From: Clostridia bacterium
Lineage (GTDB): Bacteria; Bacillota; Clostridia; Christensenellales; Aristaeellaceae
Length of the DNA stretch: 64,000 bases
Direction: 5' to 3'
Assembly (NCBI GenBank): GCA_017429695.1
Contig: JAFROK010000017.1
Location: 1-64,000 of the forward strand
Part shown: one piece after another, positions 1 through 30,480 of the stretch
How the letters are laid out: every line of letters starts with the position of its first letter
Position numbering within the stretch: the first letter of the stretch is position 1
Notes under the pieces: generated by a model
Database searches by the model: none
Seen by the model: the letters and a program-made list of their open reading frames with translations, nothing else
What the model was told of the DNA's origin: nothing
Translations under genes and position numbers: made by a program

Positions 1-177
1 TCTTTGTTTGTAAAGTCTTAATAGTTACAATTCTATTAACTATGTTATAACTAAATGAAACAGGTGCCTCGCTTACAAAAGCACCTGCTTCAATGTTTAT
101 TCATTTGCTTTTGGTCCGCCCATCCCGTGAACAGTAACGACATTTCCTTTATGAATATGAATATTGTGTGAAATAGT
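1..177. other. Intergenic region upstream of tig
   Basis: No convincing gene is visible. Positions 61-67 (CAGGTGC) and 81-87 (GCACCTG) form a 7-bp inverted repeat with a 13-base loop; read on the minus strand it is followed by TTTCATTT, so it could be a weak terminator. On the minus strand, an ATG at about 144 follows AAAGGA and opens a 17-codon frame ending just before this hairpin. That tiny frame is not recognisable and may be chance. The first 60 bases are AT-rich. Confidence 0.3.
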
Positions 178-26777: not shown

Positions 26778-26812
26778 ATAAGGTTACCGTTTGGGAGTGA
26801 TGATTACCTTAT
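26778..26812 (+). promoter_or_regulatory. Inverted repeat around the copA ribosome binding site
   Basis: ATAAGGT (26778-26784) and ACCTTAT (26806-26812) are exact inverted copies, and the second contains the first two bases of the copA ATG. The GGGAG ribosome site lies in between, 13 bases from the ATG. TTGACA at 26756-26761 lies just upstream. It could be a metal-regulator operator or a structure that limits translation. Confidence 0.45.
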
Positions 26813-29525
26813 GGGACAGTATGTGGTAACCGGAATGAGCTGCGCGGCCTGCCAGGTTCGGGTGGAGAAGGCAGTCGGAAAAGTACCCGGGGTGGACTCG
26901 GTGACTGTCAGCCTGCTGACCAATTCCATGAAGGTGGAAGGCAACGCCGATCCGGAAGAAGTGATCCGCGCTGTGGAAAAAGCCGGATACGGCGCGGAAG
27001 TGCAGGGAATTCCGTCTGAAAAGCAAAAAAGCACCATGGATTACCGTGCGGAGGAAGAAGTGCTGAAGGACCGGGAGACGCCCAGGCTCCGTCGGCGGCT
27101 GATCTTTTCGGTCGGTTTCCTGCTGGTACTGATGTATATCACGATGGGTTTCAATATGTGGGGATGGCCGCTGCCGGAAGTGCTGGCGGAGAATTATCTG
27201 GTACTGGCGCTGGTTCAGATGCTGCTTTCCGCCATCGTGATGCTGATTAACCATGAGATTTATACCAACGGGTTTAAAGCACTGGTTCACTTTGCGCCGA
27301 ACATGAATACCCTGGTTGCTTTGGGATCATTTGTTGCTTTTGTATGGAGCGTTGTTGTCTTTTTCCAGATGTGCGGGCTGATGACCAGCATCGGGCTGGT
27401 TCGTTATCCGGATATACCGCAGGATCTCAGTCCAAATAATTACAGGACCTTTTTCGGGCAGCTGACGGATAATCAGAAGTTTTATTATTTCACCCAGTTG
27501 ATCGAATCCTGGAAAGGCCATACAGAATATTTCAGCATCCTGGATGAGGCAATGCGCAACCACTATCTGAATCACCTGCATTTTGAATCCGCAGCGATGA
27601 TTCCCGCACTGATTACGGTCGGCAAACTGCTGGAAGCGATCTCCAAGGGGCGGACCACCAGCGCGCTGAAGGGCCTGATGGATCTGGCGCCGAAGACAGC
27701 GGCTGTGATCCGGGACGGACAGGAAACGGAAATTTCTGTGAACGATGTCAGAATCGGCGATGTGTTTGTTGTCCGTCCGGGAGAACGGATTCCTGTGGAC
27801 GGCGTGGTCATTTCCGGCGTGAGCGCCGTGGATGAATCTGCCCTGACCGGGGAATCGATCCCGGTGGACAAAACCGAGGGAGACGCGGTGAATACCGCAA
27901 CAATCAACCAATCCGGATATCTGACCTGCCGGGCAACCCGGGTAGGCGAGGATACAACCCTGGCGCAGATTATCCAGCTGGTTTCGGATGCCGCGGCTTC
28001 CAAAGCGCCGATTGCCCGGATTGCGGATAAAATTTCGGGCGTGTTTGTGCCGGTAGTCATCGGGATTGCTATCCTGGTGACGGTCGGATGGGTGTTGGCC
28101 GGAAACGCACTTTCCTATGCCCTGCCCAGGGGAATTTCCGTGCTGGTCGTTTCGTGCCCGTGTGCACTGGGACTGGCAACTCCGGTGGCCATTATGGTTG
28201 GCAACGGGGTAGGCGCCCGGAACGGTATTCTGTTCAAAACAGGCGCGGCCCTGGAGACCGCCGGCAAAAACCGGATTGCAGTGCTGGACAAAACCGGTAC
28301 AATCACATCCGGCCAGCCTGAAGTGACAGATGTGATTCCGGCAGACGGGATCAGCCGGAAGGAACTGCTGGAAAAGGCCTATACGCTGGAAAAAAAGAGT
28401 GAGCATCCGCTGGCGCGCGCTGTTGTGGCACTGGCTCAAAGCGAACATATTGTTCCCCGGGTAACCAAAGAGTTTACGGCGCTCCCCGGAAATGGCCTGG
28501 AAGCCGTGCTGGACGGAAAACGGATCCACGGCGGCAACCGGGGGTATATCCAGTCATTCGCTCCGCTGCCGGCAGATATTACGGCCCATGCCGAAGAACT
28601 GGCCGCTGAAGGGAAAACGCCCCTGTTTTTTGCGGAGGACGGCAGGATGCTGGGTGTGATTGCCGTTGCGGATACGATTAAGGCTGACTCGGCCGAGGCA
28701 ATCCGGCAGATGCATAAACAGGGAATCCGTGTGATTATGGTCACGGGGGATAACGAGCTGACCGCCCGCGCGATCGGTGAAAAAGCCGGAGTGGATGAAG
28801 TGGCGGCCGGTGTGAAGCCCGATGAGAAAGAGGCAATCGTCCGTAAACTGCAGCGCTTCGGTACGGTGGCCATGATCGGCGACGGAATCAACGATGCGCC
28901 GGCCCTGACCCGGGCCAATACCGGGATCGCCATCGGCGCCGGAACGGATGTGGCAATCGACAGCGCGGATGTTGTGCTGATGAACAGTTCGCTGACAGAC
29001 GCGGCTGCAGCGACCCGCCTGAGCAGAAGAACACTACTGAATATTCGGGAGAACCTTTTTTGGGCGTTCTTCTACAACCTGATCTGTATTCCGCTGGCAG
29101 CCGGGGGTAAAATGAATCCGATGCTGTCGGCGGCGGCCATGAGTATTTCCAGTGTGACTGTGTGCCTGAATGCATTGCGGCTGAATCTTTTCAGGGTTCA
29201 TGATACGACCCATGACAAACCGGGACACCGGAGAAAGCTGCCGGACCGTCTGCTTCCGGAACGTTTTGCGTCGGCAATCCATGGAGTGGATGAACCGGAA
29301 ACAGAGGCGGTCCCGAAACAGATTACCATCCGGATTGACGGCATGATGTGTGAACACTGTGAAGCAACCATCCGGGAAGCATTGGAAGCCCTGCCGTTTG
29401 TGGAAAAAGTAGATGCCAGCCATGATACAGGAAAAGCTGTGATCATGCTGGCAGGGGAGCCGGATGAGAACTGGATCCGGGACGTCATTGAAGACAATGA
29501 CTATGAATACAAGGGGATGGAATGA
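26811..29525 (+). CDS. copA: Copper-translocating P-type ATPase
   Basis: P1B-type ATPase exporting Cu(I). The 904 residues run: N-terminal heavy-metal domain with CAAC (11-14), transmembrane helices, the actuator domain with [12 protein letters not shown], the membrane CPC motif at 449-451, the phosphorylation site Asp493 in DKTGT, ATP-binding HP motif (SEHPLARA), hinge [10 protein letters not shown], and a second heavy-metal domain at the C-terminus with CEHC (847-850). The loop between the third and fourth helices is about 75 residues, far longer than usual, and has many Tyr, Asn and Gln. The extra metal domain at the C-terminus is like a fused CopZ chaperone. Specificity is inferred from the CPC and CxxC motifs. 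Confidence 0.93.
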
Positions 29526-29554: not shown

Positions 29555-30289
29555 TTAAATATCATACTTTTTCAGCAGCATATCCAGGGCCTCCCTGAGA
29601 AGGATCGCTTCGCCGATGCCTTCTTTTTTTGCAAGCTTGGCCAGGCGCTGGAGCTGATCCTGGGTATAGTGGCTGGTTTTCGGAACCATCTTTTCTTCAC
29701 GGGCCATGGTGACCTTATTCCTGCCGCTGACCTTGGCGCGGTAAAGTGCACTGTCTGCTTTCCGGATGAGTTCCGCGCAGCGGGAGGCATCCTCAAAGGC
29801 AGTAGCCATGCCGATGGTGATGCTTTGGCGGACGCCGTCCGGAGTAACAATGTTGTAGTTGTTCTTCAGTTCGTTCAGGAAAAGGAAAATTTCTTCTTTT
29901 TCCATGCTGCCGCGAAAGATGATGCCGAACTCATCCCCGCCGATGCGGTAGATTTTCGCATCCGCCGGCAGACTGTCCTTCAGATAGGTGCCGGCAGCGA
30001 TCAGGACGCGGTCTCCTTCATCTGTGCCGAAATCGCTGTTGATATGAAGGAATTCGTCGCAGTCCACCAGCGCGATGGCGACGATTTCACCTGAGGCTTC
30101 CGGTTCAGAAGCCAGGATTTCCGTCAGGTCTTTCTCAAACTGATCCCCGACAGGGAACTTCAGGGCATCGTTGACCGCGCTGATTTTTCTTTCCGCATGG
30201 CGGCGGCCGAGCTCCATATGATCTTCCACGGTGATGGGACGGGCGGGCTCTTTTACGGGTGCTTTGGCAGCTTTCTTCTGGGCGGGCAT
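29555..30289 (-). CDS. Diguanylate cyclase with C-terminal ribbon-helix-helix-like domain
   Basis: The 244-residue product makes c-di-GMP: a GGDEF domain spans about 45-200, with VDCDEFLHINSDFG (first metal-binding aspartate) and the intact IGGDEFGI motif at 116-123. There is no RxxD inhibitory site at the expected place. No sensor or membrane domain precedes it; only a Lys/Ala/Pro-rich head of about 20 residues. The last 40 residues, KTSHYTQDQLQRLAKL through LLREALDMLLKKY, match the strand-helix-helix pattern of CopG/Arc-type DNA-binding domains. The start is the second of two ATGs (six bases apart), which is eight bases from AGGAGG; the first ATG is only two bases from it. The promoter is surrounded by palindromes. 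Confidence 0.8.
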   Translation of the reverse strand: MPAQKKAAKAPVKEPARPITVEDHMELGRRHAERKISAVNDALKFPVGDQFEKDLTEILASEPEASGEIVAIALVDCDEFLHINSDFGTDEGDRVLIAAGTYLKDSLPADAKIYRIGGDEFGIIFRGSMEKEEIFLFLNELKNNYNIVTPDGVRQSITIGMATAFEDASRCAELIRKADSALYRAKVSGRNKVTMAREEKMVPKTSHYTQDQLQRLAKLAKKEGIGEAILLREALDMLLKKYDI

Positions 30290-30304
30290 TTTCATTTCCT
30301 CCTT

Positions 30305-30335
30305 ATATCATGTGATATTATTTCGCAAATAACAT
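30305..30335. promoter_or_regulatory. Palindromes in the diguanylate cyclase 5' leader
   Basis: ATATCA/TGATAT (30305-30318) overlaps a 21-base element, ATATTATTTC followed by GCAAATAACAT (30315-30335), whose left arm is identical to that of the perfect palindrome at 30400-30420 and whose right arm has two mismatches. On the minus strand they lie in the transcribed leader. Confidence 0.55.
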
Positions 30336-30348
30336 CCTGCGGTGAATA

Positions 30349-30378
30349 TTTTATAACATATCATATTATAAAAGTCAA
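30349..30378 (-). promoter_or_regulatory. Promoter of the diguanylate cyclase gene overlapped by a palindrome
   Basis: On the minus strand TTGACT (30373-30378), a 17-base spacer and TATAAA (30350-30355) with TGT just upstream form an extended -10 promoter. The inverted repeat TTTTATAA (30349-30356) and TTATAAAA (30366-30373) covers the -10 and spacer exactly. Confidence 0.75.
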
Positions 30379-30399
30379 TATAAAAAATACTTTTAGAAA

Positions 30400-30420
30400 A
30401 TATTATTTCAGAAATAATAT
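30400..30420. promoter_or_regulatory. Perfect 21-bp palindrome, candidate operator
   Basis: ATATTATTTC (30400-30409), a central A, then GAAATAATAT (30411-30420). It lies upstream of the diguanylate cyclase -35 and also 55 bases upstream of the -10 for the FeoAB gene on the other strand. It matches neither the Fur nor the DtxR consensus well. Confidence 0.6.
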
Positions 30421-30451: not shown

Positions 30452-30480
30452 TTTACGATGACGGGAAAGAGGAATATAAT
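30452..30480 (+). promoter_or_regulatory. Promoter of the feoAB fusion
   Basis: TTTACG (30452-30457), 17-base spacer, TATAAT (30475-30480), 45 bases before the ATG. The small palindrome TTCAG/CTGAA (30426-30441) is just upstream. Confidence 0.6.

Follow-up and report, generated by a model that had tools for sequence, protein, structure and literature searches.

A GGDEF protein with a C-terminal ribbon-helix-helix domain and a conserved inverted repeat at its own promoter: a candidate trigger diguanylate cyclase of the Clostridia

Background

Ribbon-helix-helix (RHH) domains may be fused to enzymes, as in PutA from E. coli, where the RHH domain is found at the N-terminus; PutA shares this kind of architecture with the protein described here, but its enzyme acts in proline catabolism and the catalytic domain is unrelated. 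Diguanylate cyclases, in turn, need two GGDEF domains brought together. A link between the RHH fold and c-di-GMP is given by CdbA from M. xanthus, a stand-alone RHH receptor of c-di-GMP and genome-wide nucleoid protein, for which the available part of the description reports loss of c-di-GMP binding upon K8A/S10A and R27A/R30A substitution.

By analogy, the nearest concept is that of the trigger enzyme, with PdeL as the EAL counterpart of the present protein. PdeL from E. coli, a 'trigger phosphodiesterase' composed of a LuxR-type HTH and an EAL domain, is described, in the available part of a 2016 review of such enzymes, as binding its own promoter region at an imperfect palindrome (PMC5052742). 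The likeness lies in the fusion of a c-di-GMP enzyme to a DNA-binding domain and in the palindrome at its own promoter; PdeL, however, degrades c-di-GMP, uses an HTH and activates itself, while the protein reported here is a predicted synthase, carries an RHH domain and probably represses itself. The same review asks whether diguanylate cyclases can be trigger enzymes. MabR and the PucR-type regulators also combine a GGDEF fold and a DNA-binding domain in one transcription factor, but, in the available text of PMC11617747, feature an HTH and no catalytic motif, where the present protein has an RHH domain and an intact motif. GGDEF-EAL proteins fused to a LysR-type HTH use another DNA-binding fold and other sensory domains, and no operator is described for them in the accessible part of the source. 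Full-text literature searches, judged by title and start of the abstract and mostly limited to papers outside subscription, returned no GGDEF-RHH protein; the available part of PMC8846402 contains none of six DNA-binding terms.

Protein architecture

The window analysed is a stretch of 64,000 nucleotides of contig JAFROK010000017.1, from a Clostridia bacterium. The GGDEF-RHH gene is located at 29555..30289 on the minus strand and codes for 244 amino acids, with an ATG at 30289 and GGAGG at 30298-30302. Homologues were compared in a core set of 66, obtained from 76 rows by removing L009 and L069, whose starts are mis-set, the truncated L066, and identical sequences.

The N-terminal extension (residues 1-44; 30158..30289, minus strand) consists of an Ala/Lys-rich tail, followed by an RPITVEDH-type segment (residues 17-24), and contains no sensor domain recognised by Pfam. 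The segment is conserved, with P18 in 55 of the 66 core-set homologues, and was not seen among the deeper family members whose sequences were viewed. The GGDEF domain (about residues 45-195; 29705..30157, minus strand) scores 85.8 bits against PF00990, well above the cut-off of 23.8, and matches diguanylate cyclases in the PDB. Its GGDEF motif is intact (residues 117-121; 29927..29941, minus strand), and no RxxD I-site is found upstream of the motif, either here or in any of the 66 homologues. A full GGDEF domain with intact motif, lacking both a sensor domain and the inhibitory RxxD site, is what the sequence-only reading of this DNA had described, and all three points hold.

The C-terminal tail (residues 196-244; 29558..29704, minus strand) scores 27.1 bits against RHH_3 (PF12651; cut-off 21.6). 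Its structure model (m11fc4916d5e9; pLDDT 92.9) is close to PutA, CopG and Arc: helices span residues 210-223 and 227-241, and no strand is assigned in the monomer. The earlier proposal that the last 40 or so residues are RHH-like is thus borne out by both profile search and structure prediction, against the alternative of a plain helical cap. When the tail sequence was searched against the PDB, the best match was VapB26, at only E 0.4.

Over the 66 homologues, mean pairwise identity is 0.86 for the RHH tail, compared with 0.64 for the GGDEF domain, and reaches 0.92 in the predicted DNA-reading strand, PKTSHYT (residues 203-209; 29663..29683, minus strand), the most conserved stretch measured. 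In the register of CopG and PutA, P203, T205 and H207 are predicted to face the DNA; K204 and S206, core-facing in the same register, are nevertheless polar, which counts against this reading.

The stand-alone RHH proteins nearest to the tail, retrieved from the phylum with E-values of 8.6e-9 to 7.7e-5, mostly precede PIN genes: a PIN-like next gene is seen by eye at 8 of the 11 loci (none at L157, L161 and L163), and Pfam identifies all four of the genes tested as PIN. The tail is therefore closest to VapB-type antitoxins, which usually repress themselves. These antitoxins adjoin a PIN toxin gene; the window gene, in contrast, has none at its side, being flanked by genes for a P-type ATPase and FeoA-FeoB, and its RHH domain is fused to a GGDEF domain instead. 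A CdbA-like binding of c-di-GMP by the tail is not supported: when residues 5..49 are aligned with 5..49, K8/S10 and R27/R30 of CdbA fall on P203/T205 and K222/I225 of the window protein, so that K8 and R30 are not kept.

A conserved inverted repeat at the promoter

The promoter of the gene is composed of a -35 element, TTGACT (30373..30378, minus strand), and a -10 element, TATAAA (30350..30355, minus strand), with a 17-nt spacer; a general promoter scan of the window did not pick it up. Three candidate sites surround it, all on the minus strand. O1, ATGTTATTTGCGAAATAATAT (30315..30335), has one mismatch to the shared motif, starts 43 nt past the start of the -35 element and would lie at roughly +8 to +28 in the inferred transcript. 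A weak site with two mismatches (30346..30366) covers the -10 element. O2, the perfect palindrome ATATTATTTCTGAAATAATAT (30400..30420), is located upstream of the -35 element. All three fall within 30300-30420, the target proposed earlier for a gel shift.

The motif is an inverted repeat, ATATTAT-N7-ATAATAT, with consensus GATATTATTTCnGAAATAATATC, shared by the regions upstream of the homologues. An exact copy is present in 52 of 83 distinct upstream regions; taking the best site of each region, the number rises to 70 with one mismatch allowed and to 75 with two. Dinucleotide shuffles of the same regions average 0.0, 0.05 and 2.75, respectively. At 54 loci of named genomes, some of them near copies, 47 exact and 38 one-mismatch sites are present in 13,880 upstream bases; the remaining 476,687 bases contain neither kind. 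What is new here is this conserved inverted repeat, a putative operator located at the promoters of most GGDEF-RHH homologues. When 25 upstream regions were scanned for inverted repeats in general, the results for L083, L079, L128, L131, L132 and L151 were unconvincing (13 to 53 of 60 shuffles did as well), and in some other regions the best repeat was G+C-rich and not the operator.

In the 3.03-Mb genome of the window, O2 is the only exact site and O1 the only one with a single mismatch. Up to two mismatches, 21 places are found, against 14 for a reversed-pattern control; within one mismatch the control gives 3 places and the motif 2. Since the control is not below the motif in this count, the evidence lies in where the sites fall. 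A search of 300 genomes from the window's family for the strict form yields 21 places (reversed control: 0). They are spread over 19 genomes, each of which bears the gene, and comparison of coordinates puts all 21 just upstream of the GGDEF-RHH gene. The strict form is missing from 19 of the 38 gene-bearing family genomes, several of which feature looser sites. The 45 genomes of the genus contain 23 exact places: 20 are at the gene, in 18 gene-bearing genomes, while three, with a different centre, belong to G025, which is 66% complete, has no gene found and is outside the 300 family genomes. In G040, the nineteenth genome with the gene, the site at the gene has one mismatch.

When one mismatch is allowed, hand tallies give 28 places at the promoter and 20 elsewhere in the 19 gene-bearing genomes of the genus (control: 10), and 11 in the 26 genomes without a gene match (control: 11). 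No clear wider regulon emerges from the 20 places elsewhere; a slight excess over the control is left, and divergent sites may exist. Genomes that lack both the gene and the motif add no independent evidence, because the promoter travels with the gene. The earlier suggestion that the protein may bind its own promoter has strong comparative support in this palindromic candidate operator, found almost only at the GGDEF-RHH gene; nothing speaks for the other suggestion, synthesis merely localised to DNA.

Site positions were counted over 74 promoters, corresponding to the upstream regions with a recognisable promoter, which leaves out L127-L134 and L071. A site with at most two mismatches starts 40-45 nt past the start of the -35 element in 54 of them; 30 have a site upstream of the -35 element and 16 a site centred on or near it, in which case TTGACAA can form the N7 centre; five feature none of these placements. 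The palindrome might instead be read as a hairpin formed by the 5' leader RNA, since the commonest site, at about +8 to +28, is within the inferred transcript; this is very improbable, given that the sites upstream of the -35 element and those on or near it fall outside the transcript, that the conserved arms are made of A and T only, and that no Rfam family matches the window: a scan at the Rfam cut-offs returned neither a riboswitch nor any other family. The half-site ATATTAT has two-fold symmetry (ATA-T-TAT), and sites in tandem are often offset by 14 nt, suggesting that each half-site takes up one RHH dimer, at a spacing of 14 bp.

Genomic neighbourhood and distribution

The FeoA-FeoB gene, identified by Pfam, is divergent from the GGDEF-RHH gene and has a promoter-like TTTACG-N17-TATAAT at 30452-30480, so that the operator could serve feoAB as the box of an iron regulator, such as Fur or DtxR, with the GGDEF gene as a bystander. 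We regard this as hardly credible: feoAB is absent from the neighbour clusters common to at least 3 loci, the operator stays with the GGDEF-RHH gene, and an iron box would be expected at many loci, while the strict site is found at the GGDEF-RHH locus only. A Fur/DtxR box was accordingly rejected. On the other side, the P-type ATPase gene (26811-29525) contains two heavy-metal-associated (HMA) stretches by Pfam, which on visual inspection lie at opposite ends of the protein. Few loci have a neighbour in common: the biggest cluster of neighbouring genes includes 7 loci, in a comparison where flanks of 4 kb or more on both sides are available for only 32 of the 76 loci, and loci from the genome search have about 1.5 kb.

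The gene is present in 19 of the 45 genomes of the window's genus. Named genomes contribute 55 loci; many of these genomes are rumen MAGs under the title Lachnospiraceae, and one is the isolate Butyrivibrio sp. MC2013. The bacterium of the window has relatives in rumen and gut. The tail profile is found in 38 of 300 genomes of the family, with one match each except for two in G027, in 9 of 391 genomes of the class, own genome included, and in 17 of 398 genomes of the phylum, where four are GGDEF fusions (own genome and L151-L153) and 13 are short RHH proteins lacking GGDEF. The tail sequences gave no match in searches of plasmids and phages. The whole protein matches 2346 plasmid records, all below 60% identity; of the 15 listed, every annotated one is described as a GGDEF, EAL or diguanylate cyclase protein.

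In a tree of 86 members, rows of the window's family are interleaved with rows titled Lachnospiraceae, which suggests that the gene has passed from one family to another, unless the MAG titles are misleading. Genome G027 has two loci (L021 and L027) on separate contigs, each accompanied by an exact operator; they are either two copies of the gene or the result of contamination. A contig of a 'Candidatus Treponema caballi' MAG (L071) contains the gene and an exact operator, through horizontal transfer or misbinning. A 5-kb 'viral' contig from IMG/VR (L083), identical in protein and upstream region to a locus of an Oscillospiraceae MAG (L078), is probably a bacterial fragment.

Residue 207 and operator type

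The ATATTAT operator, within two mismatches, is present in 74 of the 78 members with His207 and in none of the 8 with Tyr207. For CATATATATG, within one mismatch, the distribution is the opposite: 6 of the 8 Tyr207 members and 4 of the 78 His207 members. Four members (L119, L127, L128, L151) have His207, yet lack the ATATTAT operator, and two (L132, L152) feature neither type. As the His/Tyr switch is mostly one split in the tree, the change of operator that appears to accompany it, at a residue predicted to read DNA, is only suggestive. In L134, an ERDEF member, a 44-nt perfect palindrome extends over the promoter, from -80 to -37 relative to the start codon.

These data bear on whether the palindrome could be the operator of a different, dedicated factor, the RHH tail serving only to dimerise the GGDEF domains. 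RHH domains do dimerise, and a PDB match, GCN4-WspR (3i5c), is a GGDEF domain joined to a foreign dimeriser. This explanation is nonetheless quite improbable: a factor controlling one unlinked gene per genome would be odd, and no conserved neighbour was found; the predicted DNA-facing strand is the most conserved stretch measured, which dimerisation alone would not call for; and residue 207 changes along with the operator.

Catalytic state of the GGDEF domain

In the core set the motif is GGDEF in 61 members and SGDEF in 5, and D76, N84, D93, D119, E120 and K186 are invariant in all 66. D76, N84 and D93 presumably have the metal and guanine roles of their counterparts in PleD. The position that we take to be PleD R446 is R in 40 members, G in 22 and H in 4, and the one equated, also by assumption, with K332 is mostly not Lys; cyclase activity is, consequently, likely rather than certain, and the window protein is likely, judging from its residues, an active diguanylate cyclase. 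It would be one of many, as its genome contains 28 further matches to the GGDEF part (E <= 0.001) and 13 EAL matches.

In the 86-member tree, 62 members have GGDEF and 24 another motif: 6 SGDEF, 5 GGDQF, 2 AGDEF, 2 HGDEF, 2 NKDEF, and one each of GGDAF, AADRF, TRDQF, RGDEY, ERDEF, SGDQF and AADEF. Several of these come from L115-L123, where the RHH tail is kept: in g14, one genus of the window's family, five members have GGDQF and two more AGDEF and SGDEF, and L118, of g8, has GGDAF. Outside the core set GGDEF is kept in just 1 of 20 members (L152). Motif state requires four changes on the tree, at least three of them by well-supported branches, with long branches leaving the deep order unsure. 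Most members beyond the window's clade have an altered motif, and the RHH tail persists in them, usually with an operator; among L115-L123, the sequences indicate repeated change of the catalytic motif with retention of the RHH tail.

Catalysis might, then, be dispensable or lost, the protein being a repressor with its GGDEF domain as a sensor of GTP or c-di-GMP. The 24 members with another motif, in which the tail and usually the operator persist, favour this, and a GGDEF-like domain without catalytic motif, joined to an HTH, is reported for the PucR-type MabR in the available part of PMC11617747. We consider it unlikely for the window protein, given the six residues invariant throughout its clade. 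Nor does alteration of the first Gly necessarily abolish activity: the cyclase GcpD from Dickeya has an AGDEF motif, on which, according to the accessible part of PMC11960120, its activity depends, so that an altered motif need not be a dead one.

Discussion

Sequence data taken together, the protein quite probably acts both as a diguanylate cyclase and as a local transcription factor that represses its own promoter. Its C-terminal RHH domains, to judge from their fold, would pair, bringing two GGDEF domains together. According to the geometry of the repeat, RHH dimers would sit 14 bp apart on the ATA-W-TAT half-sites of ATATTAT-N7-ATAATAT. With operators located on its own promoter, at about +8 to +28, upstream of the -35 element or centred on it, occupancy would repress; repression is preferred to activation because the operator positions would block RNA polymerase. 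Free protein, with its intact catalytic motif, would make c-di-GMP from GTP, and autorepression may hold the amount of enzyme steady, in place of product inhibition through an I-site. The nucleotide state of the GGDEF domain may, more speculatively, loosen or tighten DNA binding.

A bolder and more tentative version, which we find possible but doubtful, is that of a one-protein c-di-GMP homeostat: the catalytic state, that is the GTP- or c-di-GMP-bound pairing of the GGDEF domains, would set the grip of the RHH domains on their own operator, making this the first 'trigger diguanylate cyclase', and across the Bacillota the same chassis would have lost or altered its motif more than once, to become a nucleotide-sensing self-repressor.

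As for a trigger enzyme, the window protein combines catalytic and DNA-binding architecture with a candidate operator at its own promoter. The GGDEF-RHH family thus makes the question raised in PMC5052742, as far as its available part goes, directly testable: it offers a small protein in which no membrane or sensor part is recognised, a single promoter, a candidate operator that is short and defined, and natural variants with intact or altered active sites, along with a natural change of operator. For a cyclase with neither sensor domain nor I-site, self-repression would provide a route of feedback.
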